From assembly GCF_025813715.1 (NCBI RefSeq), contig NZ_CP107532.1:3302001-3366000 (forward strand): DNA of 64,000 bases, read 5' to 3'. Position numbers and translations under genes: made by a program. The DNA is from Methylobacterium sp. FF17 (GTDB lineage Bacteria > Pseudomonadota > Alphaproteobacteria > Rhizobiales > Beijerinckiaceae). The notes under the pieces were generated by a model. The model ran no database searches, was not told the origin of the DNA, and was given only the letters and a program-made list of their open reading frames with translations. Positions 2,413 through 57,817 of the stretch are shown in pieces (positions within the stretch are counted from its first letter, which is position 1; each line of letters opens with the position of its first letter).

Positions 2413-2472
2413 CGCGGACGCCTCGGACGCCCGCCACTCCCATTCGGCACTCTTCTCTCACGAGCAGGTCCC

Positions 2473-4476
2473 ATGTTCTCCAATCCGGATCTCCAGAAGC
2501 TCCTGTTCGGGCGTTTGACGCTCGACGCCGTGCCGCTTCATGAGCCGATCCTCCTCATCACCTTCGCGATGGTCGGCCTCGGCGGCGTCGCGGTGCTCGG
2601 CGCGCTCACGTATTTCCGGCTCTGGGGAACCCTCTGGCGCGACTGGTTCACCTCCGTCGATCATAAGAAGATCGGCATCATGTACATCGTGCTCGCCCTG
2701 GTCATGCTGCTGCGCGGCTTTGCCGACGCGCTGATGATGCGCGCGCAGCAGGCGATGGCCTTCGGGCCGAACGAGGGCTACCTGCCGCCGCACCACTACG
2801 ACCAGATCTTCACCGCCCACGGCGTGATCATGATCTTCTTCGTGGCGATGCCGCTGGTCACGGGCCTGATGAACTTCGTCGTTCCGCTGCAGATCGGCGC
2901 GCGCGACGTCGCCTTTCCGTTTCTCAACAACTTCAGCTTCTGGATGACGGTGTCCGGCGCCGTGACGGTGATGGCTTCGCTGTTCGTTGGTGAGTTCGCC
3001 CGCACCGGCTGGCTCGCCTATCCGCCGCTCTCGGGACCCGCCATGAGCCCCGGCGTCGGGGTGGACTACTACATCTGGGCGCTGCAGATCGCCGGCATCG
3101 GGACGTTGCTCTCGGGCATCAATCTCATCGCCACCATCGTGAAGATGCGCGCGCCCGGCATGACCATGATGAAGATGCCCGTCTTCACCTGGACGGCGCT
3201 CTGCACCAACATCCTCATCGTCGCCGCCTTCCCGATCCTTACGGCCGTTCTCGCGCTGCTGTCGCTCGACCGCTACGTCGGCACGCACTTCTTCTCGAAC
3301 GACCTCGGCGGCAACCCGATGATGTACGTGAACCTCATCTGGATCTGGGGTCACCCGGAGGTCTACATCCTCATCCTGCCGGCGTTCGGCGTGTTCTCCG
3401 AGATCGTCTCGACCTTCTCGAGCAAGCGCCTCTTCGGTTACGCCTCGATGGTCTACGCGACCGTCGTCATCACGATCCTGTCCTACCTCGTGTGGCTGCA
3501 CCACTTCTTCACGATGGGCTCGGGCGCCAGCGTGAACTCGTTCTTCGGCATCACGACGATGATCATCTCGATCCCGACGGGCGCCAAGATCTTCAACTGG
3601 CTGTTCACCATGTACAAGGGCCGCATCCGCTTCGACGTGCCCATGCTCTGGACCGTCGGCTTCATGGTGACCTTCGTCATCGGCGGCATGACCGGCGTGC
3701 TGCTCGCGGTGCCCCCGGCCGACTTCGTGCTGCACAACTCGCTGTTCCTCATCGCCCACTTCCACAACGTGATCATCGGCGGCGTGCTGTTCGGTATGCT
3801 GGCGGGTATCACCTACTGGTTCCCGAAGGCGTTCGGCTTCAAGCTCGACGAGTTCTGGGGCAAGGTGTCGTTCTGGTTCTGGCTCACCGGCTTCTGGTTC
3901 GCCTTCGCGCCGCTCTACGTGCTCGGCCTGATGGGCGTCACCCGCCGCGTCCAGCACTTCGACGATCCGTCGCTCCAGATCTGGTTCGTGATCGCGGCCT
4001 TCGGTGCCTTCCTCATCCTGCTCGGCATCGCCTCCTTCGGCGTCACCCTGCTCGTCAGCTTCCTGAAGCGCGACCAGCTGCGGGACACCACCGGCGATCC
4101 GTGGGGCGGCCGCACCCTTGAGTGGGCGACCTCCTCGCCGCCGCCGGACTACAACTTCGCCTTCACGCCCGTGATCCACGATCACGACGCGTGGTGGGAC
4201 ATGAAGAAGCGCGGCTACGCCCGTCCGCTGACCGGCTTCAAGCCGATCCACATGCCGAAGAACACCGCCACGGGCCTGATCCTCGGCGTCCTGAGCATCG
4301 TCTTCTCGTTCGCGATGATCTGGTACATCTGGTGGCTCGCAGCCTTCAGCTTCCTGGTCATCGCGGTGGTCACCATCGGCCACACCTTCAACTACAACCG
4401 CGACTTCTACATCCCGGCCGACGAGGTCATCCGGACGGAAGGCCAGCGGACAGCCCTGATGGCGGAGCGCGTCTAA
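2473..4476 (+). CDS. cyoB: Cytochrome bo3 ubiquinol oxidase subunit I
   Basis: Catalytic subunit carrying low-spin heme b and the heme o3-CuB centre. All metal ligands are present at a constant offset of +10 from E. coli CyoB: His116 (TAHG) and His431 (AHFHN), His429 for heme o3, and His294, His343 and His344 for CuB. Tyr298 of GHPEVY, cross-linked to the CuB His in this family, is also present. The 667-residue length matches the family. [20 protein letters not shown] is a textbook heme-copper oxidase signature. The start ATG follows a spaced leader after cyoA, and cyoC begins 4 bp after the stop, so translation is probably coupled. Confidence 0.98.
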
Positions 4477-8840: not shown

Positions 8841-9047
8841 TCACGCCAGGAGCGCAAGAAGGATCGTAATCCCATAAACGATCAGGAGGAGTGGAATGAT
8901 CTCGCGAGGCTCCAGGATACGGATCAGGCCCTCCGGCTCACGCCCGTCCGAGACACGATCAGACAGTCGGCTCGCATCCTTTTCGGAAGCATCCCAACAC
9001 GAAACGGGAGGACCACGGGACTCGGAAATTGGAACAGGCTGCACCAC
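8841..9047 (-). CDS. Small hypothetical protein with C-terminal membrane helix
   Basis: A 68-residue frame starting GTG at 9047, preceded by GGAGG at good spacing. The first 45 residues are polar; the end (IIPLLLIVYGITILLALLA) is a clean membrane segment, so a tail-anchored product is plausible. A longer plus-strand frame covers the same DNA but has no protein-like character. Support is only the ribosome binding site and the hydrophobic tail. Confidence 0.4.
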   Translation of the reverse strand: MVQPVPISESRGPPVSCWDASEKDASRLSDRVSDGREPEGLIRILEPREIIPLLLIVYGITILLALLA

Positions 9048-9727
9048 GGGATTGATCCTCCAGCGGGTACATGGATGCAGAAGGCTCGATGCGGCGCATT
9101 GCGGAGCGTTAACGTAAGATTTCGACGTTCGAATATTGCGCGTCCGGTGTGAAATCAGACGGACGCGGACGCTAAGCCGGCCGCCACGTTTCTGCTACAC
9201 TCCTCGCCCTCGAATGCTTCTGAGCTGAGGCGAACGCGGCTGCGTCCAAGTCTTGACGCATCCTATCGAGGACACTCCTTTGGAGCCCCAATCACGCATG
9301 TGGTTGCCCCCGTGAATCGCCATCCCGCTCGTGTGAGGCCGCGTACCGATACGTGAACCAGTCTCCGGAACAATCTCACGAAAACGCTCACGACCCCAGC
9401 GTCACTTGACCTACGCAGACCTCCCGATTTGAGTCAGGATTGCCGCCCAAACTGACACAGCGCGTTGTGCCTCGATGCGGGAGCATCGCGCTGGAAGGGA
9501 CGATAATTTGGGGAAATTGGAATGGCGGAGACGGAGGAACCCAAGGCTCGTTGATTTTGCTCAGGAATTCGCGGCAATTCTCTCGCTACCCCACCATTCA
9601 CCCTACCCGAGCGCGGCGCGTTAGGATTTTGGGGTTCGGAAGGGCAGGGGAGGTGTGACCTCGGCGGCATAGCTCACCAGCGCGCCGATCCCCTATCCCG
9701 TCCGGCCCGCACCAGCCTCCGGACCCC
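9048..9727. other. Gene-poor stretch, possible prophage edge
   Basis: About 680 bp without a protein-like reading frame on either strand. No tRNA, integrase or direct repeat can be seen that would define an attachment site. Host-type genes lie to the left and small accessory genes to the right, so the left prophage boundary could fall in or near this stretch. That is inference only. Confidence 0.3.
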
Positions 9728-10102
9728 ATGCCCGCCACGCCTAAGATCGTCCCCGCCGACCCGAAGCTCTGGCGCCAGGGATTCCTCACACTCAGCCCCG
9801 GCGTGTCCCCCTGCCATGGCCTCACGGGCGCGAACTGGGCCGCCATTCACGCGAAGGGCATCGACTTCCTTGATCGGTGGGCGGATCAGGCCGTAGCGCT
9901 CGGCTGGACCACGCTCGATTGCTGGGGCGTTCACCCCGAGGCGGGCACCATCAGGTCCGACTTCTGTGGTGCTCTGGTGCTCAGCACCGATCTCGTGTCC
10001 GGCATCACCGAGACGCGCATGCGGTTCGTCAACACGACGTTCTACCGGGACACGCCGGGCCGGCCCGAGGGCGCGGTGCCGCTGTGGCAGTTCGGCCGGT
10101 GA
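9728..10102 (+). CDS. Hypothetical protein
   Basis: A 124-residue protein with balanced composition: several Trp (LWRQGF, DRWADQ, LDCWGV) and ends in VPLWQFGR. I do not recognise a family. It heads a run of short plus-strand genes and the N-terminal PATPKIVPADPKLWRQGF is typical of a real coding start. It may belong to the prophage flank or to the host. Confidence 0.65.
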   Translation: MPATPKIVPADPKLWRQGFLTLSPGVSPCHGLTGANWAAIHAKGIDFLDRWADQAVALGWTTLDCWGVHPEAGTIRSDFCGALVLSTDLVSGITETRMRFVNTTFYRDTPGRPEGAVPLWQFGR

Positions 10103-10143
10103 CCTCTATCTCGTCGGGGGCAGAAGCCGCGAAGGAAGCGCAC

Positions 10144-10335
10144 ATGCCCGACAAGCGAGGTCGTAAACCCGAGCCGCCAGCCGATGACGCCCCGGACCGG
10201 TCTCCCGCCGGCATGCGCGCAACGGCCGACCGCATCGAGGAGCGATCCTCGCAGGGGTTCTACGTCCCTCCCTCGGCTGCCGTGCTCTACGCCGAGGCGC
10301 TGCGAGCCCTCGCACGCGAGCACGAGAAGGGATGA
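10144..10335 (+). CDS. Small hypothetical protein
   Basis: A 63-residue, highly charged protein (MPDKRGRKPEPPADD...), Pro/Arg/Glu-rich at the N-terminus with a helical second half (AVLYAEALRALAREHEKG). ATG at 10144 follows GAAGGAAG at suitable spacing. No function can be assigned. It lies in a string of short co-directional genes. Confidence 0.6.
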   Translation: MPDKRGRKPEPPADDAPDRSPAGMRATADRIEERSSQGFYVPPSAAVLYAEALRALAREHEKG

Positions 10336-10365
10336 GGATCGGTCAGGGCATGCTATCCAGCGCCC

Positions 10366-10629
10366 ATGGCTGAGAACCCCACGACCGGCGAACTCTACAA
10401 GGCGAAGACCCTCACCGAAGAGGACGTCGGCGCGGCGGTCGACGCCTTCATAGCGGACCCGACGACGACGCTCTTCGTCTTCGGAGACGGCTACCGCCTG
10501 GACCTCGCTGCGGCGGTCCGAGATCACGCATGGGCGTCCACCACCGTGGCTTCTGGAGATGCGACCCCGCACCTGAAGCGCGCCGCCGTCCGCACGGCGA
10601 TCCTGCTGGCGCGTCCAGAGAAGGCGTGA
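10366..10629 (+). CDS. Hypothetical protein
   Basis: An 87-residue protein beginning MAENPTTGELYKAKTLTEEDV. An acidic helical N-terminal half is followed by a short hydrophobic strand region (TTLFVFGDGYRLDLAAAV). No family recognised. It is 30 bp after the previous gene and 8 bp before the next, consistent with one transcript. Confidence 0.6.
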   Translation: MAENPTTGELYKAKTLTEEDVGAAVDAFIADPTTTLFVFGDGYRLDLAAAVRDHAWASTTVASGDATPHLKRAAVRTAILLARPEKA

Positions 10630-10637
10630 GCCGCACG

Positions 10638-10787
10638 ATGAACATGTCCGTGTTGGCGCTCATGATCGGCATCACCTTCGGGGCTCTGGTGCTGCTCGTC
10701 TACGCAATCGCCTTCGACCACCCCATGCTGCTGGTGGCGATGGGCGCGGCCGCGCTTTTCGCGTTTGCGCCCTGGCACCGCTGGTAG
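10638..10787 (+). CDS. Small membrane protein
   Basis: A 49-residue protein made almost wholly of two hydrophobic segments (SVLALMIGITFGALVLLVYAIAF and MLLVAMGAAALFAFAPW) joined by a short turn (DHP), so it should sit in the inner membrane as a hairpin. No family is recognised. It starts 8 bp after the preceding gene and is followed 4 bp later by the next likely GTG start. Confidence 0.55.
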   Translation: MNMSVLALMIGITFGALVLLVYAIAFDHPMLLVAMGAAALFAFAPWHRW

Positions 10788-10791
10788 CAGT

Positions 10792-11361
10792 GTGACCGGC
10801 GAGCTGCCGCCGTGGCGAGAGATCACCACGGACGACTACCACCCGCGCGTGTTCCCCGACGGTAAGGGCGGCGCGGCCTGGATCGCATCGAGCCAGCGAA
10901 TCAAGGATCTCCTCGAGCGCCAGCATGCCGGCGAGTTCCGGCTGCGCCTCGTCCTGCGGGAAGCCGTCGACCTGAAGCGCGGCCCGAGGGTCGATCCGAC
11001 CTGGCTCTGGGACTACGACGCCGGCCCGGCCGCCATCATGAGCGTGGCCGAGATCGTGATCCAGACGAAGGACGGCCGCCGGCGCAAAGAGGCCCGCACG
11101 GTCTCGTCGCCTCCGGTCGCTGCCCCGGAGGTCGCTGCCCGGCGCTTTGCACGTCCCTGGTCGGTACGCGAGATGCAGGGGGCCTTCGTCATCCAGGACG
11201 CCTCGGGCTTCTCGATCGCCCACCTCTACTTCTGCGACGACGAGCAGCGCCGATCCTCCACCGGGCGCATGTCGCGCGATGAGGCGCGCCGAATCGCCGT
11301 GAATATGGCGCGATTGCCGGACTTACTGCAGATCGAGCGGGAGAGGCCCGGCGAGCCGTAA
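10792..11361 (+). CDS. Hypothetical protein
   Basis: A 189-residue soluble protein read from GTG at 10792; an alternative upstream start would add nine residues. It has a mixed alpha/beta pattern, a basic central part (TKDGRRRKEART) and a C-terminal region GFSIAHLYFCDDEQRR...MSRDEARRIAVNMARLPDLL. That last part resembles a short motif common in small alphaproteobacterial proteins of unknown function. No catalytic signature is seen. Confidence 0.65.
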   Translation: MTGELPPWREITTDDYHPRVFPDGKGGAAWIASSQRIKDLLERQHAGEFRLRLVLREAVDLKRGPRVDPTWLWDYDAGPAAIMSVAEIVIQTKDGRRRKEARTVSSPPVAAPEVAARRFARPWSVREMQGAFVIQDASGFSIAHLYFCDDEQRRSSTGRMSRDEARRIAVNMARLPDLLQIERERPGEP

Positions 11362-11391
11362 CGGGCATGGAGCAAGGGCATAGGAACGACG

Positions 11392-11643
11392 ATGACCCGA
11401 GCGGTTCAACAGACCGAAATTGACGAGATCTGGCGCAGAGATGGTGAGAAAAATGGTTGGCAGCTGCCCAGATCAGCACCCCTGTTCTTCCGCTTGATGG
11501 GTGTCCGGCTCGCGAGAGCGGCTTTCCTAGAGGCACGCGCCCGCCGCGAAGCAGTGCGCCTGAAAGCTCACGGGGTAGGGCTGGGTATACCGAGCCAACG
11601 CGAGCTGTGGGTCATTTACGGGGTAGCTCGCGGATGGTGCTGA
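11392..11643 (+). CDS. Small hypothetical protein
   Basis: An 83-residue basic protein with Trp/Arg-rich character, ending IPSQRELWVIYGVARGWC. ATG at 11392 follows a purine-rich stretch (GGAACGACG). No family recognised. The bases just downstream are more AT-rich than its neighbours. Confidence 0.5.
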   Translation: MTRAVQQTEIDEIWRRDGEKNGWQLPRSAPLFFRLMGVRLARAAFLEARARREAVRLKAHGVGLGIPSQRELWVIYGVARGWC

Positions 11644-11738
11644 GCATTGCCACGGGGCGGATGCCCTTGCTCTGTGAGCCCTCCGCAATTTTGGCTTGAT
11701 CGAGCGCCAAGGACGGCCTCGCACAGGGGAGATAAATT

Positions 11739-12533
11739 ATGGCTGCGCCTCCGGATGAAGGCCTGCGACCAGTACATAAACTAGAGATCTACGCCCACGT
11801 CATCCGCGCCCTCGTCTTACGCGACATGCGCACGCGCTTCGGTGGCTCCCACTGGGGCTACGCGGTCCTCGTCCTGTGGCCGGTGGCTCATATCTTCGTC
11901 ATGGTCGGCGTCATGGCCTTTCGCGGCCAGCCGTCGCCGATGGGCGACAGTCCCCTCCTGTTCGTCGCCACGGGCTGCGTCCCCGCCCTGACCTTCCAGT
12001 ACATCTCGCGCGAGGTCATGAAGGCGGTCACCGCGAACAAGCCGCTGCTTTACTATCCACAGGTGAAGATCTTCGATGTCATGCTGGCGCGGCTGATCGT
12101 GGAGATCGTGAAAGGATTCACGGGTCTCCTGATCGTCATCGCCATTCTTGCGAGCCTGGGCGTCAATCCCATCCCGTTGGAGCCGTCGATGGCGATCGGC
12201 GCCTATTGTGCCGCGATCCTGTTGGGGGTCGGCGTCGGCTCCGTCAATATCGGGATCGTCTCCTTCTTTCCCGGCTGGCAACTGGGCTACATCATCGTGG
12301 CCATTACGATCTATCTGTCCTGTGGTATCTTCTATCTGCCGCACCTGCTGCCCGATCAGCTCTACAACATCATGAAGTGGAACCCGATGGTTCAGATCGT
12401 CGAGTGGACCCGGCTCGCCTACGAGCCCAATCTCGGCGTCGAGGTCGATTACATGTATGCCTTGTTGGTCGGCGCGTCGGCGCTCTCCATCGGCTTGCTT
12501 ATGGAGCGAACCCTTGTGCGGCGTATGACCTAG
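11739..12533 (+). CDS. ABC-2 type polysaccharide export permease
   Basis: A 264-residue integral membrane protein with six predicted spans. Near the N-terminus it has the motif LVLRDMRTRFGGSHWGYAVLVLWP, typical of KpsM/Wzm-type permeases that move capsular polysaccharide or O-antigen across the inner membrane. The C-terminal pattern (YNIMKWNPMVQIVEWTRLAYEPN) also fits. Family members work with an ATPase (KpsT/Wzt), normally encoded next door; none is visible here, so it is an orphan. It may be a lysogenic-conversion gene, or a host gene beside the prophage. Confidence 0.85.
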   Translation: MAAPPDEGLRPVHKLEIYAHVIRALVLRDMRTRFGGSHWGYAVLVLWPVAHIFVMVGVMAFRGQPSPMGDSPLLFVATGCVPALTFQYISREVMKAVTANKPLLYYPQVKIFDVMLARLIVEIVKGFTGLLIVIAILASLGVNPIPLEPSMAIGAYCAAILLGVGVGSVNIGIVSFFPGWQLGYIIVAITIYLSCGIFYLPHLLPDQLYNIMKWNPMVQIVEWTRLAYEPNLGVEVDYMYALLVGASALSIGLLMERTLVRRMT

Positions 12534-12603
12534 GATGCCGCCGCGCTTAAGCAGGCCGCGGCGGACCGGGTGAAGGCCGCATGGGCGTTGTGGCTGGAAA
12601 CGC

Positions 12604-12634
12604 AAAACCCGCCACGGCCGGAGCCGGGCGGGTG
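12604..12634 (-). terminator. Rho-independent terminator T1 (shared-stem family)
   Basis: Read on the minus strand: ACCCGCC, inner stem CGGC, loop UCCG, inner stem GCCG, then GGCGGGT and a UUUU run. It shares the outer stem with three copies at 12740, 13099 and 13633, and stops leftward transcription. The other strand reads as the C-terminal codons of an extension in frame with the permease. Confidence 0.8.
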
Positions 12635-12739
12635 AAGGTTGTGGCCGCTCGCCGAGCAGGGACGCAAACTGGTTAACGGCCACCTGCAGAGTGCGGCCGC
12701 TAGCTTACCCGAAGCTGGCGAACTGTACGGGCGCAGACG

Positions 12740-12770
12740 AAAAACCCGCCTCGGATCGCTCCGGGCGGGT
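12740..12770 (-). terminator. Rho-independent terminator T2 (shared-stem family)
   Basis: Minus-strand hairpin with outer stem ACCCGCC/GGCGGGT, inner stem CGGA/TCCG, a GNRA tetraloop GCGA, and a five-U run. It is nearly the same as the copy at 13633 and differs by one loop base. Confidence 0.8.
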
Positions 12771-12844
12771 GAATGTCGGGTACCACTTTGCTCGCGCTGG
12801 CCACCGTTAATGTGCTGTGCAGCATGATCGGCTACTCTCAAGCG

Positions 12845-13093
12845 ATGCGCTACACATTCGTTGCCGCCTTCCTGCTGTTCGCCTCCGGAGCCTCGGCCGG
12901 GCCGTTAGACTTTATCGCAGGCATCCCCGATGCGCCGGGGGTAGTTTCTGGTGGCTCCTTCGGAGCCAGCGGCAATGACTACTACGGCGACATGCACCGG
13001 ACCGGCTCAATCGCTCACGCCAGACAAACGCGGCCAAGCAAAACAGCCAAGGCTCGCATCACGACGTCGAGAAAGTTAGGTTCGCGCTCGTGA
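12845..13093 (+). CDS. Small secreted protein
   Basis: An 82-residue protein with a clean Sec signal peptide (MRYTFVAAFLLFASGASA, cleavage before GPLDF). The mature part starts Gly/Asp-rich and ends basic (RPSKTAKARITTSRKLGSRS). No family is recognised. It lies on the plus strand between leftward terminators T2 and T3, in the accessory flank of the prophage. Confidence 0.5.
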   Translation: MRYTFVAAFLLFASGASAGPLDFIAGIPDAPGVVSGGSFGASGNDYYGDMHRTGSIAHARQTRPSKTAKARITTSRKLGSRS

Positions 13094-13098
13094 ATACG

Positions 13099-13129
13099 AA
13101 AACCCGCCGCAGCTTTCGCTGGGCGGGTG
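13099..13129 (-). terminator. Rho-independent terminator T3 (shared-stem family)
   Basis: Outer stem ACCCGCC/GGCGGGT with inner stem CAGC/GCTG and a GAAA tetraloop on the minus strand, then a UUUU run. It is placed to end the transcript of the DUF6894 gene at 13294. Confidence 0.8.
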
Positions 13130-13293
13130 AGGTGCGGCCTCTGGCTGGGCAGGGCTGCTGCACCCGGAAGCCGTCGGCAGGGTGGTCATCGTCGCTTGCC
13201 TGAGGCTGCCCGTTGGTACGGGTTCGGACGGGGCGCTCGCTGCGACAGGTGATCGGCGGTTACGGGCCACTGACCGCACCAAGCACGAACGAC

Positions 13294-13542
13294 CTACGAA
13301 GCCATTGCCGCCGCAGGATCACGCGGGATCACAGGCAACACCCTGACGGTCTTCCCCGACGCGTTGCGGATGATCATCATCCACTGATCTGCATCGTTGG
13401 CGAGCTCGTTGTCCTCTCGCATTTCAGCAAGAGCTTCGCCCGCCTGACGGATTGCATCATCCAGATCTATTGCGGAGACGCCCACTTCGTCGCTGATCGT
13501 GGAAAGTCCGTTGGTGAGATCGAAGTAGAAGCGCTCCGACAA
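13294..13542 (-). CDS. DUF6894 family protein
   Basis: An 82-residue protein with the pattern RFYFDLTNGLSTISDEVGVSAIDLDDAIRQAGEALAEM, followed by WMMIIRNASGKTVRVLPV. This matches the small DUF6894 proteins that are abundant in Methylobacterium and relatives; their function is unknown. The start is most likely TTG at 13542, preceded by GGAGAG. A TTG four codons upstream lacks a ribosome site. It ends before terminator T3 and is preceded by T4, so it is a separate unit. Confidence 0.8.
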   Translation of the reverse strand: MSERFYFDLTNGLSTISDEVGVSAIDLDDAIRQAGEALAEMREDNELANDADQWMMIIRNASGKTVRVLPVIPRDPAAAMAS

Positions 13543-13632
13543 AATTCTCTCCAAATGTCCGCTCGACTCAGGGCCGTCGGCACTACTCCCCTATTCAGTC
13601 GTTGGTTTCGACATAGGCGAATGTGCCGCATG

Positions 13633-13663
13633 AAAAACCCGCCTCGGATTGCTCCGGGCGGGT
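13633..13663 (-). terminator. Rho-independent terminator T4 (late operon end)
   Basis: Minus-strand hairpin ACCCGCC-CGGA, GCAA tetraloop (GNRA), TCCG, one bulged A, GGCGGGT, then five U. It is the first terminator met after the last lysis-type gene (ending 13742) and so probably ends the long leftward late transcript. Confidence 0.85.
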
Positions 13664-13741
13664 GAGGTGTGTGCCCTCGGTAGGGCTTAGGGCTTCTGTG
13701 TTTAGCAGGCCTCGCACGTCTGGCTGTTCACGTTCCCGCGC

Positions 13742-14185
13742 TCACCCGGCGCAGCGGATATCCCGCGTGCCCCGGGTGAGCCCCTGGATGGCTTCGACCA
13801 TCTCGCGATGCTCCTGGTGCCGGTCCTCGGCCATGCGCTTCTCATGCTGGCGCCGCTCCTCGAGCAGCCGCCGCTCGTGCTCGCGGGTCTCCTCGACCTC
13901 TTTCTTCCGAGCGGCCATCTCGGTTTCGCGCGTCAGGGTGCATCGGTCATACGATGCGGAGACCATGCGGAGCCCTTCGTTCAAGCTTGCTAGGTCGCCC
14001 TGACCCATCACCATGCCGGCGATCTGCGCGAGGCCGCCGCTGCCAACCGTGGGCGGGGTAATGTGCGGCTTCTCCACCTTCGCTCGCATGTAGCCGATAA
14101 CGGCGAGAAGGATGCCGCCCCCGCCACCTGCGGCCAGCAGGGTGCTCAGGATGTCGACCCACTGCTTCACGTCCTCAGGTGACAT
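13742..14185 (-). CDS. Phage membrane-anchored coiled-coil protein (Rz-like position)
   Basis: A 147-residue protein with one membrane span near the N-terminus (about residues 14-30, LAAGGGGGILLAVIGYMRAK) and a long charged helix (MAARKKEVEETREHERRLLEERRQHEKRMAEDRHQEHREM). The form, an N-terminal anchor plus a periplasmic coiled coil, resembles inner-membrane spanins, but no family motif is seen. The ATG at 14185 overlaps the end of the preceding gene, and the gene is last in the late operon. Confidence 0.7.
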   Translation of the reverse strand: MSPEDVKQWVDILSTLLAAGGGGGILLAVIGYMRAKVEKPHITPPTVGSGGLAQIAGMVMGQGDLASLNEGLRMVSASYDRCTLTRETEMAARKKEVEETREHERRLLEERRQHEKRMAEDRHQEHREMVEAIQGLTRGTRDIRCAG

Positions 14186-14636
14186 TGCGCGGCGCAGCTC
14201 CAGCGGTGAGGGAACCGTTCTTGAACATGTCGTAGCCGGTTGCGAGGACACACCAGCCCTCGAACACGAAGCAGAGCGGGTACCAGCCAAACCCGGCAGG
14301 TAGGCGCGTGTTGAAGGCGTAGGACCCGACCAGCATCAGGAACCCGATGGCGAGCCAGCATAGGCCCCCAGAGAGGGCGCCGATGAAGCGGATCACCGGA
14401 GTGCGCCGCCACCACCCATTGATGCCAAGGCCGACCATGCGCAGGACGGCGACAGAGGCCGCCACCATCCCCCACCGCGATTCCGTCATCACCTCGCCCA
14501 TGATCTTGTAGACGGGCAGATCGAAGAAGGCTTCGGGCCGCAGCATGCTCGCCCCCCAGACGAGAAGCATGCAGGATAGCATCCACTCCAGGGGGCGGGT
14601 CATGTGCATCGAGGTCGGATTGTGGGCGCGGTTCAT
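14175..14636 (-). CDS. Phage membrane protein, lysis region (holin-like)
   Basis: A 153-residue protein with four predicted membrane helices (for example PLEWMLSCMLLVWGASML and FIGALSGGLCWLAIGFLMLVG). The family is not recognised. Its place among lysis-type genes, between a signal-peptide membrane protein and a spanin-like protein, suggests a holin or holin partner. The start at 14636 follows a GGAGGCG ribosome site. Confidence 0.65.
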   Translation of the reverse strand: MNRAHNPTSMHMTRPLEWMLSCMLLVWGASMLRPEAFFDLPVYKIMGEVMTESRWGMVAASVAVLRMVGLGINGWWRRTPVIRFIGALSGGLCWLAIGFLMLVGSYAFNTRLPAGFGWYPLCFVFEGWCVLATGYDMFKNGSLTAGAAPRNVT

Positions 14637-14656
14637 GGCAACGCCTCCTGCGGTCC

Positions 14657-15166
14657 TCACCGCGCGAACGGGAAGGTCGGCAGGTCGCCGATCACGTCGG
14701 CCAGCACCTTGTCGCTGACCGTCTCATCGAACTTGAAGACCCGGAACAGGCGCTCGGTGATGCCCTTGGCGCCACCGGCTTCCTTCAGCAGCCAGGACGG
14801 CGTGGAGCCCATGATCCGCTCCAGAGCGACCTTGATGACCGGATACCCCACGTCCACCGACAGGGCCTTGTCATGGGTGGCACCCTCGACGGCGTTGATG
14901 GCGTAGTCGGCCCCGGTCTTCAGCATGCGGTCGATGCGCTGGGTCGTCAGCCACATCGTGACCCACCAGGGCAGCCGGGCGGCGCCGGCCACCGCGAGGG
15001 CTGACAGGATGGGCAGGATGATCTCCAGGGCGGCCTTGGAGAACTCGGCAACCATCTGGCCCCAGGGGATGGCCAGCGCCGAGTTGGAGGCCTCCTGCGC
15101 GAACACAGGCGAGACAGACAGGACGCTGGCGAGCGCCAGCGCCGCGAGCAGAAGCATGCGGGTCAT
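14657..15166 (-). CDS. Phage membrane protein with signal peptide (holin-like)
   Basis: A 169-residue protein starting with a signal sequence (MTRMLLLAALALASVLSVSPVFAQ) and a second hydrophobic helix (ALEIILPILSALAVAGAARL). The soluble C-terminal part resembles LLH-type phage holins in layout (IDRMLKTGADYAINAVEG... near a long helix), but this is only a likeness of pattern. It is the first of three adjacent membrane genes at the end of the late operon. Confidence 0.65.
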   Translation of the reverse strand: MTRMLLLAALALASVLSVSPVFAQEASNSALAIPWGQMVAEFSKAALEIILPILSALAVAGAARLPWWVTMWLTTQRIDRMLKTGADYAINAVEGATHDKALSVDVGYPVIKVALERIMGSTPSWLLKEAGGAKGITERLFRVFKFDETVSDKVLADVIGDLPTFPFAR

Positions 15167-15195
15167 TTCAAAAACCTTCCAGTATGAGCAGGCTG

Positions 15196-15708
15196 TTATG
15201 TAAAGCGGGCGAACCCGCCGTGCATTTTGATCACGGCTTCTTGGTACAGGGCCGCCGCTTCTTCTCTTGTTTCTCGAAATCCAAGAAGCTTGCGCCGGCT
15301 GGCGACGGTTGTGGTTGCCGCCCACTTGCGACATCTCTTGTCCCAGTGGACGCCTTTGAAGCCGCTGTTGTTGTTCTTATAGCGAGGAATGTTGGCCTTG
15401 TTCTGCGTACTCGTGCAAAAGCGAAGATTGCAAGTCCTGTTGTCCAGCTTGTCCCCGTTGATGTGATCGACTTCTTGTCCCTTACATGCACCGATAATCA
15501 GCCGGTGCATGTAGACGCGCGACACAAGCCCATCCCGCTGCTCAGATCGAGCGGCGTAGTGCCCGATCGCAGATGGGACCGCTTGCCAATTCACGCCCGA
15601 GACAAGGGCCAAGCACCCAACGTCAACGATGGCAGTTTGCCCCTGCGTCAAGATGATCTTGGCAACCCCGTCTTCGATCAAGGGCGGGCGGTATCGCTTG
15701 TCCGGCAT
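15196..15708 (-). CDS. HNH homing endonuclease with AP2 DNA-binding domain
   Basis: A 170-residue protein. The middle holds an HNH_3 motif (VYMHRLIIG...EVDHINGDKLDNRTCNLRFCTSTQNKAN) with His and Asn metal and catalytic residues. The C-terminus is an AP2/ERF-like domain (NNSGFKGVHWDKRCRKWAATTTV...REEAAALYQEAV). This architecture is typical of free-standing homing endonucleases in phage genomes. The gene sits as a guest between a lysis gene and a Tad1-like gene. A regulated promoter region with three copies of a 14-bp element lies directly upstream. Confidence 0.92.
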   Translation of the reverse strand: MPDKRYRPPLIEDGVAKIILTQGQTAIVDVGCLALVSGVNWQAVPSAIGHYAARSEQRDGLVSRVYMHRLIIGACKGQEVDHINGDKLDNRTCNLRFCTSTQNKANIPRYKNNNSGFKGVHWDKRCRKWAATTTVASRRKLLGFRETREEAAALYQEAVIKMHGGFARFT

Positions 15709-15718
15709 CTGGGTCTCC

Positions 15719-15783
15719 GTATCATGTACACGATTGAAGGAATACCGTGTCCATGATACGAGGTCAAAGCGTGTACACGATAC
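15719..15783. promoter_or_regulatory. Triple operator between HNH gene and DNA-binding protein gene
   Basis: The 14-mer CGTGT(A/C)CA(T/C)GATAC occurs three times: direct at 15746-15759 and 15770-15783, inverted at 15719-15732. The direct copies are 24 bp apart and are both followed by GAGGTC. The core CGTGTACACG is itself palindromic. It lies between the divergent starts of the HNH nuclease and the small DNA-binding protein, so the latter is the likely regulator. Confidence 0.75.
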
Positions 15784-15792
15784 GAGGTCGCT

Positions 15793-15999
15793 TTGACGCA
15801 GATTGAGTTTTCAGGCACCCGTCCCCGCATGGGTCGGAAGAAGCTTTGGGCTGAGAGCCTGCGATTACCGCTGGCTGAGGGAACTACCGCCCGCTTGGAT
15901 GCCGCTCTGGCTCCTGGCGAAGATCGGGTTTCGCTGATTCGAGAAGCCATCGAGCGAGAGTTAAAGCGCCGCGCGAAGGCAATACGGACTCAAACTTGA
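15793..15999 (+). CDS. Small ribbon-helix-helix-like regulator
   Basis: A 68-residue basic protein. The core ESLRLPLAEGTTARLDAAL...EDRVSLIREAIERELKRR follows the beta-helix-helix pattern of ribbon-helix-helix repressors (short strand, then two helices). TTG at 15793 has GAGG at good spacing; ATG at 15829 is an alternative giving 56 residues. The operator copies overlap its upstream region, which suggests autoregulation. It faces into the Tad1-like gene and overlaps its end by 10 bp. Confidence 0.65.
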   Translation: MTQIEFSGTRPRMGRKKLWAESLRLPLAEGTTARLDAALAPGEDRVSLIREAIERELKRRAKAIRTQT

Positions 16000-16385
16000 T
16001 GCGTGCCTTCGACGCCGCGCGCCATGCGCGCGCGAGTACGGGACAGGAGCGCTTCCTGTGCAGCTTCGACGTGCTTCAACGCTTCAGCGTTCTCGGCACA
16101 GGCGTAGGGGCCGGCTTGGAACGCCTGGAGGCGGTCGGCGACGATTGCCAGCAACACCTCCTGCGTGACGCCGTTCACGCCAACTTCGGCGATCGGGCCG
16201 TTCTGAAACAACACGAGAAGGGCGTTGCCGCCCACTTTGTGCTCTGCCGCTGAGGGGTTCGTCCCATAGTCGAAGCCCTCCACTTCGTAGAGATGGTGGG
16301 CGCCTCCGGCGCCCGAAGAGTCCAAGACCTTAAGCGTCAGGGTGTCATTCGCCGGGTTCACCCGGTGGCTGGTGATCTCTCGCAT
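15990..16385 (-). CDS. Tad1-like anti-defence protein (Acb2/Tad1 hairpin)
   Basis: A 131-residue protein. The N-terminal half is predicted beta-rich (NDTLTLKVLDSS, HHLYEVEGFDYG, NALLVLFQNGPI). The C-terminal half matches the pattern I know for the Tad1/Acb2 helical hairpin: FQNGPIAEVGVNGVTQE, then VADRLQAFQAGPYACAENAEAL, then a second helix ending RTRARMARGVEGTH. Tad1 proteins are phage proteins that bind and sequester nucleotide signals of Thoeris (gcADPR) and, for some, cyclic nucleotides of CBASS. Assignment rests on remembered sequence pattern. It lies in the prophage late region, upstream of the lysis block. Confidence 0.72.
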   Translation of the reverse strand: MREITSHRVNPANDTLTLKVLDSSGAGGAHHLYEVEGFDYGTNPSAAEHKVGGNALLVLFQNGPIAEVGVNGVTQEVLLAIVADRLQAFQAGPYACAENAEALKHVEAAQEALLSRTRARMARGVEGTHQV

Positions 16386-16554
16386 GATGGTCTCTCGATG
16401 TTGGGGGTGCGCGGCGTCCGGCCGGCTCGGAGCGGGTGGTGGTTGACGGAAGCGCGAAGCGATGGCGGTTTAGGGTGATCGCAGCGGTCCGCGGCCCAGC
16501 GCGGAGCGATTGGGGCGGCCAGGGGGGAAACCGACCACTCTCTGGCCGCTTCCC

Positions 16555-16710
16555 TCAGCGCCGGGTGATGCGGTCGAACAGCCACCGGCCGAGGCGCGCC
16601 CACGGGGACGGGTTCTCGGGGTAGCGCGGCGCGTCGAGCAGCTTCTGCGGCGGGAGGCCGGCGGCGCGGCGGGGCGCGGCCGGGAAGAGCGGGCGCCGAT
16701 CCTCAGCCAT
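16555..16710 (-). CDS. Small phage protein after endolysin
   Basis: A 51-residue basic, Pro-rich protein (MAEDRRPLFPAAPRRAAGL...WARLGRWLFDRITRR) with an amphipathic C-terminal helix. Its ATG overlaps the endolysin stop (ATGA), which supports translational coupling. No family recognised; a lysis accessory role is only suggested by position. Confidence 0.6.
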   Translation of the reverse strand: MAEDRRPLFPAAPRRAAGLPPQKLLDAPRYPENPSPWARLGRWLFDRITRR

Positions 16711-17408
16711 CACGCTTCCGACACGCCGGAGCGCGCCCCCGCCACGGTGGTGGGCAGTCTGGACGCCGCCGGGATCGGCATGTCGGCCGGCCAGCGGAAG
16801 GCGACGATCTCCGAGCGCTTGAAGGCCGCGACCGACACCTGATCGCTCTGGTTCCCGCCGAGCAGGAACACCTGATCCTTGTCCGCCCCGACGACGAAAC
16901 CCGTGTGGCCCTGCCAGGATGAGCCCGCCCGCTTCTTGGTGGCGATGCAGCCCAGGACCGGCTCCTTCAAGCCGATGCCCCAATTCTCGAAGCTCCGGGC
17001 CGCGAGGCTGCGTGAGCCGCGGTGACCTGCGCGCTCCAGCATGGCGTTCACGAAGGCCGCGCACCAGGCGGTGGAATCGGTCTTGATGCCCGGGAAGCCC
17101 GCGTCCGCGAACAGCTTCACCACCTGGGCGTTGTTCGCGGCGCCGGGGCCCTCCTTCACGCCGAGCATGGCCGCCGCCAGCGTCAGCCACCCGGGCTGAT
17201 CCGGCTCGGCCTTCTTCTCGGACACATCGACCGTGGCGAGGGCCTTCTGCGTCAGCGGCCCGGCGATCCCGTCTGCGACGAGGCCGGCGGCGCGCTGGAA
17301 GGCCGTCACGGCGGCGATGGTCTTCGGCCCCGCATCGCCATCGGCGCCGGCCGGCCCGAGGTCATACCCGCGCGCCAGGAGAGCGCGCTGGATCTCAGCG
17401 ATCGTCAT
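16710..17408 (-). CDS. Endolysin: peptidoglycan-binding plus CHAP-like amidase (TIGR02594 type)
   Basis: A 232-residue lysis enzyme. Residues about 1-60 form a PG_binding_1 repeat (AEIQRALLARGYDLGPAGADGDAGPKT...AFQRAAGLVADGIAG). The catalytic part has the nucleophile Cys in DSTAWCAAFVNAMLERAGH and the His in GHTGFVVGAD, followed by LLGGNQSDQVSV, the arrangement of TIGR02594/CHAP peptidases. It cuts peptidoglycan at the end of infection. No signal peptide is visible, so it relies on a holin such as those encoded at 14-15 kb. Confidence 0.92.
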   Translation of the reverse strand: MTIAEIQRALLARGYDLGPAGADGDAGPKTIAAVTAFQRAAGLVADGIAGPLTQKALATVDVSEKKAEPDQPGWLTLAAAMLGVKEGPGAANNAQVVKLFADAGFPGIKTDSTAWCAAFVNAMLERAGHRGSRSLAARSFENWGIGLKEPVLGCIATKKRAGSSWQGHTGFVVGADKDQVFLLGGNQSDQVSVAAFKRSEIVAFRWPADMPIPAASRLPTTVAGARSGVSEA

Positions 17409-17433
17409 GGTGGATCTCCGGTGTGAGGAAGGG

Positions 17434-17577
17434 TCAGCGGCGGCGCGCAGGCCGGGCGCAGACGAGGGACGGGATGCCCTCGATGGCGACGGTCACGCAG
17501 ACGGCGCGGTGGCGGGCGGCCATGGCTGAAGAGGCCAGCGCGCAGAGGAGCGCGGCAGCGATCAGGGCGCGAGCCAT
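17434..17577 (-). CDS. Small secreted protein with two cysteines
   Basis: A 47-residue peptide with a signal sequence (MARALIAAALLCALASSAMA) and a short mature part holding two Cys (AVCVTVAIEGIPSLVCARP) and a basic end. Its position between endolysin and tail fibre genes marks it as a phage gene. Small periplasmic two-Cys proteins in lysis cassettes can be spanins or lysis modulators; nothing here proves this. Confidence 0.6.
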   Translation of the reverse strand: MARALIAAALLCALASSAMAARHRAVCVTVAIEGIPSLVCARPARRR

Positions 17578-17638
17578 GGTGGGTCTCCAGATTGTCGAGG
17601 GTCGAGGGCTCGGGCCGGGTGGCGCAGCGAGCGGAAGG

Positions 17639-18829
17639 TCAGGCGGCCTTCGCCTCGAGCGCGGCGAGGCGCGCATCGAACCCGCGCGCCAGGAACAGCA
17701 TCAGCTCGTCGGCGCGGAAGCCGTAGCGGTCGCCGGCCGGGATCTCGGGCGTGGCTGGCGCGACCATGAAGGTCTCCCCCGTCGGCTCGTCGTCCTCGCC
17801 CAGCACGTCCTGGAAGACAGCCTCGCGGGCGGGCACCGCCTCCCAGGTGTCGTGGCAGATGAAGGCGTAGGCGAGCGGGTCGAGCCCGTGCGCCTCAATC
17901 ACCGCGATGGCCCGCTGGACCGTCATGCCGATGTGGCGGCGTGCGCCGTCGCCCTTGAGCGCGCAGGCATCCAGGAACTGGAACAGCCCGATCTCTCCGG
18001 CCAGCGCCTTGGCAGCCGCGATCTCCCGCTCCTCCAGCGGCACGACGGGGGTCTTCTCCCGGGCGTCCGAGGTGTTGATCGTGCCGCTGCCGGCATAGAC
18101 CGTACTCCAGCGGAGCGAGGCCGAGCCGAGCGTGAGGAGGTTGTCACCGCCCGGCAGGAAGTGGGTGCCGCTCTTGTTCCCGCTCACCAGGTCGAGGGTC
18201 ATCGCCGCGCCGATGTTCCACGCTGCCATGGACATGAAGGTCCACGCACTGGAGGAGGTGGCGGCGCTCGAATAGTCGCCCGTGTTGGTCAGGGCGATGC
18301 GGCCCGAGAAGATCCCGGGGGCCGTGCGCCCGAGGTAGAAATCCCAGCCGATCCCTTGCCCGGCGGCGGTCAGCCCAAGGTTCTGGATGCGCTGGACGGT
18401 TGCCAGCGAGTTGTCGCTGTAGCTCTGCGTGAGGAGGCCGCTGGCATAGCTGTAGGTCCGCCCACCCGAGCCGAGCGAGAGGCCGGCGAAGGCAGGGCTG
18501 TTGCCGGTGCCGAGCCCGAGCGCCGTCGCGCCGGCCGCGTCCACGGTCGTGATGGCCGCCGGTCGATGCCCAGGCGTCACCACCATCTCCACCGGCGCAT
18601 CCGGACGCACGATCACGGCCGAGGCCGAGGCGGTGTCCGGCGGCGAGCCGAAGTGCACCTTGGCCGGCGCATCGCTGAGAAGCCGGGCGATCACCACGCC
18701 CGAGGCGGGAGCTGCCGGAACCGGGTTGGTGCTCGCCACGGCTGCCGCGCCCGTTGCGATCCGGTCGCCTCCAAACGGGCGGCGCTGCCCCCGCGCGTCG
18801 ACGCCGAAGTACTGGATTTTGACCGTCAT
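17639..18829 (-). CDS. Tail fibre protein with C-terminal S74 intramolecular chaperone
   Basis: A 396-residue structural protein. The N-terminal 100 residues are a small beta domain (MTVKIQYFGVDARG...), followed by a repetitive Gly/Ser/Ala-rich fibre part. Near residue 250 is the peptidase S74 signature STVYAGSGTINTSDAREKT, with the Ser-Asp catalytic pair used for self-cleavage of the chaperone after trimerisation. The last 140 residues are the chaperone domain, ending in a coiled coil (ARGFDARLAALEAKAA). It probably forms the distal receptor-binding fibre. Confidence 0.88.
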   Translation of the reverse strand: MTVKIQYFGVDARGQRRPFGGDRIATGAAAVASTNPVPAAPASGVVIARLLSDAPAKVHFGSPPDTASASAVIVRPDAPVEMVVTPGHRPAAITTVDAAGATALGLGTGNSPAFAGLSLGSGGRTYSYASGLLTQSYSDNSLATVQRIQNLGLTAAGQGIGWDFYLGRTAPGIFSGRIALTNTGDYSSAATSSSAWTFMSMAAWNIGAAMTLDLVSGNKSGTHFLPGGDNLLTLGSASLRWSTVYAGSGTINTSDAREKTPVVPLEEREIAAAKALAGEIGLFQFLDACALKGDGARRHIGMTVQRAIAVIEAHGLDPLAYAFICHDTWEAVPAREAVFQDVLGEDDEPTGETFMVAPATPEIPAGDRYGFRADELMLFLARGFDARLAALEAKAA

Positions 18830-18839
18830 CCGGTCCTCC

Positions 18840-21800
18840 TCACAAGATGAACGGCAGGGCCGCGAACGCGCCCTCGCGCTTGGATTGCGCCGGGCCCGGA
18901 TGGTTGATCCGGTTCTGGCAGGCCGTGGTCCGGCGCGGCTGGATCAGGCCTCCGTAATTGTCGTCGGCGTTGCCGAGCAGGTGCAGCGGGCAGTAAGCCG
19001 CCCCGGCATCCTTGGCCGCCTGTTGGAGGGCGTGCGCGGTGTAGGCGTCGCGATCCGCCGTGGTCGAGGCCAGCCGCTTGGGCACCGTCGACATGCCGAT
19101 GACGTAGACCAGGGAGACGTTTTTCTTGTGCCTCGTGATCAGGTCGCAGAGGTTGCCGTAGGTCGAGCGCTTCCCGCTCTCGTTTCGTCCCGTCCTGATG
19201 ATCGCGAGGTCGGCCTTGAAGGACAGCGCGGCCGCGATGCGCGCCGGAAAGCGCATGTTGGGCCGGTCGGTGAAGGTGTCGCTGGAGTCCGTGCCGCCGA
19301 TCGCGAGGTTGCCGGCCGTGACGAAGCAGCCGGCTTCCTCGATCGCCTCCACCACCGACCAGGTGGTGCCGATGTGGGTGTGGTAGAGCCCCGCTCCGTC
19401 GCCGTGATCGTAGAGCGGCAGGATGGACCGGTCCGCGAGGGTATCAGCAGCGAGGCCGCCCGCGTCCCAATAGCCGAGGATGCCACGGAGCGGGCTGAAC
19501 GGATTGTACCACTCGGTGTCGCCGTTGCCGTTGCCCTGTGCTTCGGTGCTGTCGCCGTCGCCAAGCACCCGTAGAGAAGCCCGGCGCCGCATCGCGCCGA
19601 GGATCGGGGCCAGCTCCTGCTTGGCCTGGAACACCCAATCGAGCGCTTCCGTCGAGCGGCCGACGCGGATGTTCTTGTGATACCAGCCCGCCCGGGTGAC
19701 TTCGACCGAGGTGGTGGTGACGTGGGCGGCGTAGAGCAGCATCGCGTTCAGCGGCACGGCCGGCGGATACTCGACGGTGTCGGCGCCGCGCTCGGTGCCC
19801 CTGACGATGGACAGCGTGCCGGTCTCGGAGTCGACCACGACGTAGTCCAGCCGCTCCAGTGCGGCGGTGTAGGTGATGCTCGGGTTCCCGGTCAGGCCCG
19901 ACTTCAGCGACCGGATCGTGCCGAGCACGTAGTCGATGGTGTAGTCCGTATCGCGGACCCGCGCCGAGCCGTTGAGCGTCACGGTCTCCGAGCCCGCCAC
20001 GATGCCGCGGTGGTTGAGCGTGTAGTTCCCCGCGCCGAGGTAGGTGGTGTAGGCGGCAACCCCGTTCGTGCCGGGGGTGACGAAGTTCAGCGTCTGCGCC
20101 GGGATGACGATGGGCTGGCCCGCGATCTCGATGGTCAGCTTCTGGAGCGGGTAGGCCAGGTTCGGCCAGTATGGGACGGACGGCTTGTCCTCGGTCAGCG
20201 CCAGCAGCTTCGGGGTCAGCGTCTCCTTCTGCGGGACGGATACGCTCTCGAAGAAGTCGTAGGCGATGGCAATGGAGGGGCCGACCGGGGCCCAGCCGCC
20301 ATTCACCTGGAAGAAGCCCCGCTGCAGCGGCGTCGAGCCGGCGGGCGGCACGGCGGCGTTGGCCCATGCGATGTTCGAGCCGTCCCCGGTCACCACGAAG
20401 AAGTAGGCCACGCCCGGCAGCAAGGTCGGAGCATCGGCGCCGAGCACGAAGGTCGCGCTCTGAGCACCATCGAAGGTCGCGTCATCCGCGACATCGGCGA
20501 TGGGATAGCGGTTCAGGTAGTCATTCTGCAGAGCGCCGACGCCGGTGAAGCCGTTGTCCTGCGCGTTGGCGACAGTTCCGCGATTGATGAGCAGGGCGAG
20601 GCGGGCGAGGCCCGACATTCCGGGGATGTAGACGCGGAAGGCGTAGGGCGGGATCATCGGTCGATCCACAACGATCGGGATCGAGAGAGCCTGGTAGGCG
20701 CCGGTCGCCTCCACGTTCCCGTCGATCAGCGAGCGCCGCCGGCCGAGGTAGGGCCGCAGCCGCCGGCCCTGGCCAGGGCTCAGGACATCGACGCCATCTG
20801 CCCCGCGCTTCGCTGTTCCGGTAACGGCATCGAAGCGCGCGGAAAGGCTGTCGAATCCCAGCGTATCGGTGGCGTCGTTGACCTCGAAGCGGAGAGCGTC
20901 GGCTTTCGAGTTGACCGCCTGGGCGTAGAGCCGCAGCGCCTCCTCCACCCCTGTGGCGCGGCGCACTTCCTCGGACAGCGCGGCAGCCAGCGCCGGGACG
21001 CTGTCCGGGGGAATGAGGCCGAGCAGGAGCTGGAACGCGTCGGTGATCTCGACCGCGCCGAGATCGGTCACCGTCGTGCGCTGCTCGAGGCCGTAGGCGC
21101 GAATGCCGATGCGGAAGTACGCCGCCCCGGGCGGGGGCTCCAGCGCGCCTTCGATGGCCAGATTGGAGCCGATGATCTGCGAGAAGGCGCGCGAGCCGCT
21201 GGCGATACTCGGGGCTTCCGACCCGACCTCGGTCGCGCTCAGAGGGCTCCGGTCGGGACCGTACCAGAACACGAAGCGCTGAACGCTGTCGTTCGAAGGG
21301 TCGGTCGGGTTGACCCGGCGCCGGTAGTTCCAGCGGGCGCGCCAGAGTTCGCCGCCCCCCACCGGATGAAGGGCGCGCTCCCAGATCTCTCGCGTGGCGA
21401 ACAGGTCGCGGCCGAGCCCATCGTCCACTACCTGCAGCGGGTAAGCCACATCGGAGAGTGGGGCCAGATCGTCCGGGTTGCCCTTGTCGAACGACCCGCT
21501 GAAGGCGCTCGGGTTGTCGCCCGGCCGCAGCGCCGGGTAGAGGCCCGCGTTGATGCGCAGGATGCGCTGGAGGAGATCGGTCAGTTCTGATCGAGAGGCT
21601 TTGCCGTCAACGGCGGCGATTGCCGCCGCGATGGATGCCTGGAGCGCCGAAAGATCAAAGGCGCCCTGCTTGCCGCCGACCACGTTCGCCAGCGCGTTGA
21701 GCTCTCTGCGAAGGCTGGCGATTCCGGACGGATCGCCCGACACGACATCGCGCACGGCATCAGCCAGCGCGCTGACGCTGGCACGAGCAAGGACCCGCGT

Positions 21801-21884
21801 CCCGCCGCCCGCATCAGCGTGCCCGAGAACTTCGATCAGGGCCCCGAGCGGGACGTTAGGCGTGCGGATGCCGTTCTCGGCCAT
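18840..21884 (-). CDS. Large tail fibre/tip protein with SGNH-hydrolase-like C-terminus
   Basis: About 1014 residues. The first 150 residues are helical (structural attachment); the middle is beta-rich with the linker EVTRAGWYHKNIRVGRSTEALDW; the final 260 residues resemble an SGNH hydrolase: block I LRVLGDGDSTEAQGNG, then IIRTGRNESGKRSTYGNL (block with Asn), and a late region NADDNYGG. SGNH domains in phage fibres deacetylate surface polysaccharide. The usual C-terminal Asp-x-x-His is not clear, so activity is uncertain. Start ATG at 21884 is preferred over a GTG 18 bases upstream. Confidence 0.8.
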   Translation of the reverse strand: MAENGIRTPNVPLGALIEVLGHADAGGGTRVLARASVSALADAVRDVVSGDPSGIASLRRELNALANVVGGKQGAFDLSALQASIAAAIAAVDGKASRSELTDLLQRILRINAGLYPALRPGDNPSAFSGSFDKGNPDDLAPLSDVAYPLQVVDDGLGRDLFATREIWERALHPVGGGELWRARWNYRRRVNPTDPSNDSVQRFVFWYGPDRSPLSATEVGSEAPSIASGSRAFSQIIGSNLAIEGALEPPPGAAYFRIGIRAYGLEQRTTVTDLGAVEITDAFQLLLGLIPPDSVPALAAALSEEVRRATGVEEALRLYAQAVNSKADALRFEVNDATDTLGFDSLSARFDAVTGTAKRGADGVDVLSPGQGRRLRPYLGRRRSLIDGNVEATGAYQALSIPIVVDRPMIPPYAFRVYIPGMSGLARLALLINRGTVANAQDNGFTGVGALQNDYLNRYPIADVADDATFDGAQSATFVLGADAPTLLPGVAYFFVVTGDGSNIAWANAAVPPAGSTPLQRGFFQVNGGWAPVGPSIAIAYDFFESVSVPQKETLTPKLLALTEDKPSVPYWPNLAYPLQKLTIEIAGQPIVIPAQTLNFVTPGTNGVAAYTTYLGAGNYTLNHRGIVAGSETVTLNGSARVRDTDYTIDYVLGTIRSLKSGLTGNPSITYTAALERLDYVVVDSETGTLSIVRGTERGADTVEYPPAVPLNAMLLYAAHVTTTSVEVTRAGWYHKNIRVGRSTEALDWVFQAKQELAPILGAMRRRASLRVLGDGDSTEAQGNGNGDTEWYNPFSPLRGILGYWDAGGLAADTLADRSILPLYDHGDGAGLYHTHIGTTWSVVEAIEEAGCFVTAGNLAIGGTDSSDTFTDRPNMRFPARIAAALSFKADLAIIRTGRNESGKRSTYGNLCDLITRHKKNVSLVYVIGMSTVPKRLASTTADRDAYTAHALQQAAKDAGAAYCPLHLLGNADDNYGGLIQPRRTTACQNRINHPGPAQSKREGAFAALPFIL

Positions 21885-21966
21885 GCGGTTGATTCCCAGC
21901 ACTGGAGAGGGCGCTTGCGCGGCCCTGTCAGATCGGACGGTTCAGAAAGGCCGAGAGGCCTGGGTG

Positions 21967-57735: not shown

Positions 57736-57749
57736 AGGCCCAGAAGTTG

Positions 57750-57785
57750 CCCCCAAAGGGGAAGATAGTCAACCCCTACAAGGGG
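57750..57785 (-). promoter_or_regulatory. Leftward early promoter with two operators
   Basis: Two operators flank a -35 box. Read leftward: CCCCTTGTAGGGG (57785-57773), then TTGACT (57772-57767), then CCCC-TTTG-GGGG (57761-57750) within the spacer. The same layout recurs at 60361-60398. Repressor binding would block RNA polymerase on both sides of the -35. Confidence 0.8.
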
Positions 57786-57817
57786 AAGGACCGACGCGAC
57801 TGTTTTCGTTCAAACAT

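Follow-up and report, generated by a model that had tools for sequence, protein, structure and literature searches.

A Tad1-family candidate signal sponge inserted in the lysis region of a Methylobacterium prophage

What does a short reading frame downstream of the endolysin gene of a Methylobacterium prophage encode, and how might its product serve the phage? The frame occupies positions 15990-16385 on the minus strand of the window, by which we mean the whole stretch of 64,000 nucleotides of Methylobacterium sp. FF17 DNA that was analysed (C1:3302001-3366000 on the chromosome). A first-pass annotation had read it as an anti-defence gene of the Tad1/Acb2 type. The frame is real: it opens with ATG, spans 131 codons and contains all of the quoted motifs (EVGVNGVT, ADRLQAFQAGPYAC and RGVEGTH). 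Judged from its matches in the PHROG, phage, IMG/VR and genome collections, together with its dN/dS, it is more than a chance frame; dN/dS lies between 0.10 and 0.27 against ten relatives, which indicates purifying selection on the protein sequence. We refer to the gene as tad1, for a Tad1-family protein with putative signal-binding (sponge) activity. It is single copy in its own genome, where one further match was found at E 0.087.

Searches of the PDB with the single sequence (phmmer) matched phiKZ gp184 best (1.6e-17), followed by two solved Tad1 proteins, 8kbb (1.5e-14, residues 58-130) and CbTad1 (7uav; 2.7e-12, residues 16-129). The last entry carries the label 'ABC transporter ATPase' in the sequence set, while its title names the Clostridium botulinum prophage Tad1. 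A profile built from 44 sequences matched CbTad1 at E 1.1e-27 over model positions 16-128 (hmmsearch), and each of the seven distinct sequences that this profile matched at E ≤ 1 was Tad1 or gp184. By both kinds of search, similarity to characterised Tad1 was significant over most of the protein length. In addition, F89 and N99, both invariant in the 44-sequence alignment, align with F82 and N92 of CbTad1, which Leavitt et al. 2022 reportedly described as gcADPR-binding residues.

Structure prediction, suggested earlier as a check, gave the same answer. The AlphaFold2 monomer model is of high confidence (pLDDT 90.6, pTM 0.81) and places strands at residues 2-4, 17-20, 32-36 and 55-60 ahead of long helices at 75-91 and 97-123, i.e. 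the Tad1 architecture of an N-terminal beta sheet followed by two long C-terminal helices. With Foldseek, all 20 PDB matches at E ≤ 0.001 were Tad1 chains (TM 0.70-0.78 by query length), including complexes with 1''-2' gcADPR, 1''-3' gcADPR, cA3 and cAAG; a total of 86 matches had E ≤ 10, and the best 50 of them continued after the Tad1 chains with unrelated proteins at E ≥ 0.53. The predicted full-length fold is common to CbTad1 (PDB 7uav, 7uaw, 8smd, 8kbe, 8kbf; for the chains listed, identity is 32-34% and TM by query length 0.71-0.78), as are the equivalents of F82/N92, the DRL-F-QAGP-ENA helix core and the C-terminal VxGT motif. The two proteins differ in one loop, which reads GVNG here and SQHG in CbTad1, and the gene described here, unlike that of CbTad1, belongs to a proteobacterial prophage, in whose lysis region it lies. 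CmTad1 (8kbb, 8kbc with cAAA, 8kbd with cAAG) aligned with TM 0.70-0.76 by query length at 30-33% identity, and has the FQxGPI-E-G-NGV and EGT motifs in common. Sequence and predicted fold thus give good support to the conclusion that the 131-residue protein is Tad1.

The Tad1 family is already known, and this is a new member of it, which the Pfam, NCBIfam and PADLOC models that we used all missed. The HMM search that had been proposed, with the Pfam Acb2_Tad1_hairpin family (PF24729), returned no match, the curated cut-off of 27 bits being missed. In a control with four relatives, the Tad1 of a Bacillus phage reached 33.2 bits and the relative L019 reached 25.8 bits, the other two being without a reported score. 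Since PF24729 fails three of these four relatives, its miss here reflects a weakness of the model for this branch and counts little; a PF24729 score is not a defining feature of Tad1. Weak Pfam matches of the tad1 product to 2-ph_phosp (0.057) and Lambda_CIII (0.24) were dismissed as chance. Three PHROG families, phrog_2428 (2.3e-29), phrog_23843 (5.7e-25) and phrog_22140 (3.7e-18), matched the protein. All three are annotated as of 'unknown function' in PHROGs v4, and, given the Tad1 identity of the protein, they are probably Tad1-like as well and so gain a likely function.

The prophage in the window is siphovirus-like, with genes for small and large terminase, portal, protease, tape measure, central tail protein J, tail fibre and endolysin, as well as a CI-like HTH/S24 repressor (57725-58519). 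Here tad1 sits among the late genes, downstream of the endolysin gene and upstream of an HNH gene. The endolysin (16710-17408, minus strand) contains PG_binding_1 (PF01471, 2.7e-14) and a CHAP-like match just under the cut-off (PF05257, 8.3e-5); its homologues occur in 34 of the 111 genomes of the genus, the own genome included (E ≤ 1e-10). Its stop codon is overlapped by a 51-residue ORF on the same strand (16555-16710), conserved in sister prophages and without a Pfam match, and a leader of ~48 bp (16386-16433, minus strand) directly precedes the tad1 ATG. On the other side of tad1 lies the gene for an HNH (AP2-like) homing-type endonuclease of 170 residues (15196-15708, minus strand; PF13392 1.5e-8, phrog_99 8e-37, AP2 match of 0.014 under the cut-off), which bears out the earlier mention of a homing nuclease module next to tad1. 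The first gene past it (14657-15166, minus strand) encodes a small secreted or membrane-like protein of the lysis region, with a signal- or TM-like N-terminus by eye. It gave no Pfam match at E ≤ 0.1, nor did its longer ORF form (14657-15334) give a PHROG match below E 0.05; of the placement 'between the endolysin and holin genes', the endolysin is borne out, by its PG_binding_1 and CHAP-like matches, and the holin label is unproven. GC3 is 0.77 in tad1, 0.68 in the HNH gene and 0.57 in a third, ribbon-helix-helix-like (RHH) gene next to tad1, versus 0.91-0.92 in the endolysin and membrane-type genes. On the tad1 strand, a scan of 14000-19000 gave no sigma-70-like promoter, and the opposite strand held a single match.

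An empty site is provided by the sister prophage L087 (L087 and L169 share a contig; L172, which comes from a genus genome, has equal match lengths and identities). Its order is endolysin, 51-residue ORF, leader and small membrane-type gene, with no insert. Window and L087 are collinear up to 16555 on one side, where the collinear matches to L166, L086 and L172 stop as well, and from 15166, the start of the membrane-type gene, on the other. The L087 leader matches the bases immediately before the tad1 ATG (blastn), and the bases before the ATG of the window's membrane-type gene do not match it. The leader is single copy in the whole own genome. The tad1, RHH and HNH genes, 1,219 bp in all, thus fit exactly into the space between this leader and the ATG of the gene that follows, so that tad1 has taken over the leader of a lysis-region gene. 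Leaders similar to that of tad1 (blastn matches in L087/L169/L172, L168 at two places, L090, L091, L185 and L166, also in L086 and L167) precede the TM-type gene, the endolysin gene or other genes in sister prophages.

Four distinct prophages were found in which this endolysin occurs together with a membrane-type gene of ≥ 60% identity; the junction holds an insert in two of them (window and L167) and none in the other two (L087 and L166). In L167 the endolysin-downstream slot is taken by an Acyltransferase_3 gene in antisense (2288-3463; PF01757, 4.8e-28), and neither the leader nor the 51-residue ORF was found at that junction. Few as these cases are, the comparison with an empty site and the presence of another insert in L167 support the lysis-region junction as an accessory slot, in line with the 'accessory hot spot' proposed by the first-pass annotation. 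The acyltransferase of L167 is possibly a surface-modifying lysogenic conversion gene. Matches to window positions 9000-21900 in the plasmid collection came from only two Methylobacterium radiotolerans records, which cover 1-3% of the query.

Within the order, family and genus, tad1 is a rare accessory gene, with carriers in 3/397, 1/397 and 1/111 genomes respectively (own genome counted). Relatives were found in 136 of 50,697 phage records (tblastn), in 10 of 72,556 plasmid records and at 52 IMG/VR loci. The genome collection contributed 27 loci, from Sphingomonas, Cupriavidus, Rhizobium, Janthinobacterium, planctomycete, verrucomicrobial and other assemblies. The gene tree is poorly resolved (of its 74 inner branches 14 are starred, and the window gene falls in no starred set that spans half of the rows or fewer), and as a sequence tree it is informative only in showing a mixing of host phyla. 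Eleven neighbouring window genes were compared with 79 relative loci by tblastn: an HNH relative was present in four loci, but only in L049 close to tad1 (~350 bp downstream), an RHH relative was present in one, and the remaining neighbours tested were found in none. A shared tad1 operon was therefore rejected at that tblastn sensitivity. After removal of six redundant loci, we also scanned the same-strand direct neighbours of 60-900 residues in the remaining 73 (92 proteins). Ten neighbours picked by eye were tested against lysis families, and six proteins in five loci matched, while four gave no match. A lysis gene thus adjoins tad1 at five or more loci besides the window: an endolysin in L031, L045 and L076, a spanin also in L045, and a holin in L074 and L078. 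At other loci the adjacent proteins gave matches to families of DNA polymerase or terminase. Thus tad1 recurs in lysis regions, but not as a rule.

Which signals might such a protein meet in its own host? Three candidate alarm loci lie on the chromosome that carries the window. In a CBASS operon (C1:2680341-2684038; L209:6342-10039), a capP-like gene (2.8e-9) comes ahead of genes for a CD-NTase (PADLOC, 6e-169), a standalone E2 (1e-55) and a CapV-type phospholipase (8e-122). A Thoeris-like locus ~144 kb from tad1 (C1:3462015-3464332) encodes ThsB (2.6e-63), a second TIR protein (6e-78) and a SLOG cluster-3 protein (7e-81). In the third locus (C1:5523274-5524675; L210:5275-6676), a ThsB_TIR ORF overlaps an ORF for a caspase-like protease (4.3e-17). 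None of the five ORFs scanned at the Thoeris-like locus encodes a SIR2-type ThsA, and its signal may for this reason not be a Tad1 ligand; signals of the TIR-SLOG and TIR-caspase-like types are not known to be Tad1 ligands. By its sequence matches the TIR-caspase-like pair is probably type IV Thoeris-like, resembling that type as it is described in PMC12847820. Across the genus, ThsB_TIR matches occur in 18/111 genomes and SMODS matches over the cut-off in 30/111, with both in eight of the 111, the host of tad1 among them; with a single tad1 carrier, no association with host defences can be claimed. The Thoeris-like locus is part of a TIR-rich island (C1:3462015-3468467; L208:7016-13468) with ThsB, TIR, SLOG cluster-3, patatin-like and another TIR protein; the patatin-like protein has hydrophobic segments, and ORFs identified by eye as transposase-like and integrase-like flank the island.

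We consider it very probable that the protein is a Tad1 sponge of the siphovirus-like prophage, made late and blocking Thoeris or CBASS suicide, with the CBASS and TIR loci of the host as its likely immediate targets. Characterised Tad1 is described in PMC12043709 as a hexamer of dimers with six pockets for gcADPR and CDNs and two trimer interfaces at which CTNs bind. By analogy, the protein would form Tad1 oligomers with separate pockets for gcADPR-type signals and for cyclic oligonucleotides; signals so bound would be kept from their effectors, and Thoeris and CBASS suicide would not stop the phage. Judging solely by its position, tad1 would be expressed with the late and lysis genes during induction or lytic growth. 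Such timing would fit systems that sense late structural proteins, as ThsB1 is described as recognizing the phage major head protein (PMC12043709).

Other readings of the protein have to be weighed against this one. The strongest of them, which we nevertheless rate as unlikely, is a Tad1 relative repurposed for another signal, e.g. N7-cADPR or a CDN of a resident system, that binds gcADPR weakly. Conservation of the residues said to line the gcADPR pocket (F89, N99) argues against it; on the other hand, the TIR-SLOG and TIR-caspase-like loci of the host look unlike type I Thoeris, and type IV systems are reported in PMC12847820 to use N7-cADPR.

Less probable still is a virion component with the Tad1 fold, which like phiKZ gp184 would be packaged and injected and would act at the start of infection. 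The orf184 of phiKZ is stated to encode Tad1 (PMC12043709), its product gp184 to be an injected virion protein (PMC10449902), and phiKZ Tad1 to be injected and to block CBASS and Thoeris (PMC13282480). Besides being the best single PDB match, gp184 (8y6v chain I) has the EVGVNG, QAGPxAC-EN and EGT motifs in common with our protein, and the place of tad1 among late genes would suit a packaged product. However, gp184 is a protein of 230 residues in which ~100 extra N-terminal residues precede the Tad1 domain (the match covers 124-227), whereas the 131-residue protein begins directly at the domain; the 52 viral relatives likewise measure 117-139 residues from the aligned start. Lack of a gp184-type N-terminal extension favours a cytosolic, late-made sponge over an injected one. 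An Acb2-type hairpin protein binding only cyclic di- and trinucleotides is next to excluded: a single Pfam family (PF24729) covers the hairpins of both Acb2 and Tad1, the two C-terminal helices of the model fit a hairpin and the sponge strategy is common to both, but the two long helices follow N-terminal beta strands, a trait given in PMC12043709 for Tad1 and not for Acb2, and no Acb2 chain was returned among the seven sequence matches at E ≤ 1 or the best 50 of the 86 fold matches, assuming that the searched sets contained Acb2 entries. Of the 'Tad1/Acb2' label, then, the Tad1 part stands, through the matches to solved Tad1 and the fold, and Acb2 membership was rejected.

Taking the Tad1 sponge as the preferred reading, we also put forward, as a tentative and rather doubtful extension, that one broad late-operon sponge protects prophage induction against all three resident systems (CBASS, TIR-SLOG and TIR-caspase-like) from a slot in which cargo takes over a shared late-gene leader. 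More generally, a set of relatives spread over many bacterial phyla gains a Tad1 that is carried by a proteobacterial prophage. Precise insertion and co-resident possible target systems give it additional interest: with a sponge, CBASS and two TIR loci in one genome, prophage counter-defence against resident immunity becomes approachable in a single strain.

The remaining part of the inserted block deserves comment. The RHH-like gene (15793-15999, plus strand; 68 residues) is convergent with tad1. Its RHH label was assigned by eye, and its product had no Pfam or PHROG match; 11 relatives were found in viral contigs. Between it and the HNH gene are three operator-like repeats of the CGTGTACAYGATACG type (15718-15789), across which the RHH-like gene (plus strand) and the HNH gene (minus strand) face each other (region 15718-15999). 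By eye, repeats of the CGTGTACAYGATACG type also lie upstream of the RHH homologues in eight of the 11 loci (L211-L218). No HNH relative was detected by tblastn in L211-L218, and of all 11 RHH loci only L221 has one. This suggests that the RHH gene and its repeats are a portable, autoregulated module with varying cargo. Elsewhere in the window we observed a Hint_2 (Hedgehog/intein-type) domain protein between the terminase and repressor genes (49248-50327; PF13403, 7.1e-38), a collagen-like repeat protein between the head and tail genes (39323-40132; PF01391, 4.8e-21) and a DUF6894 protein near the left prophage edge (13294-13554; PF21834, 9.2e-14).
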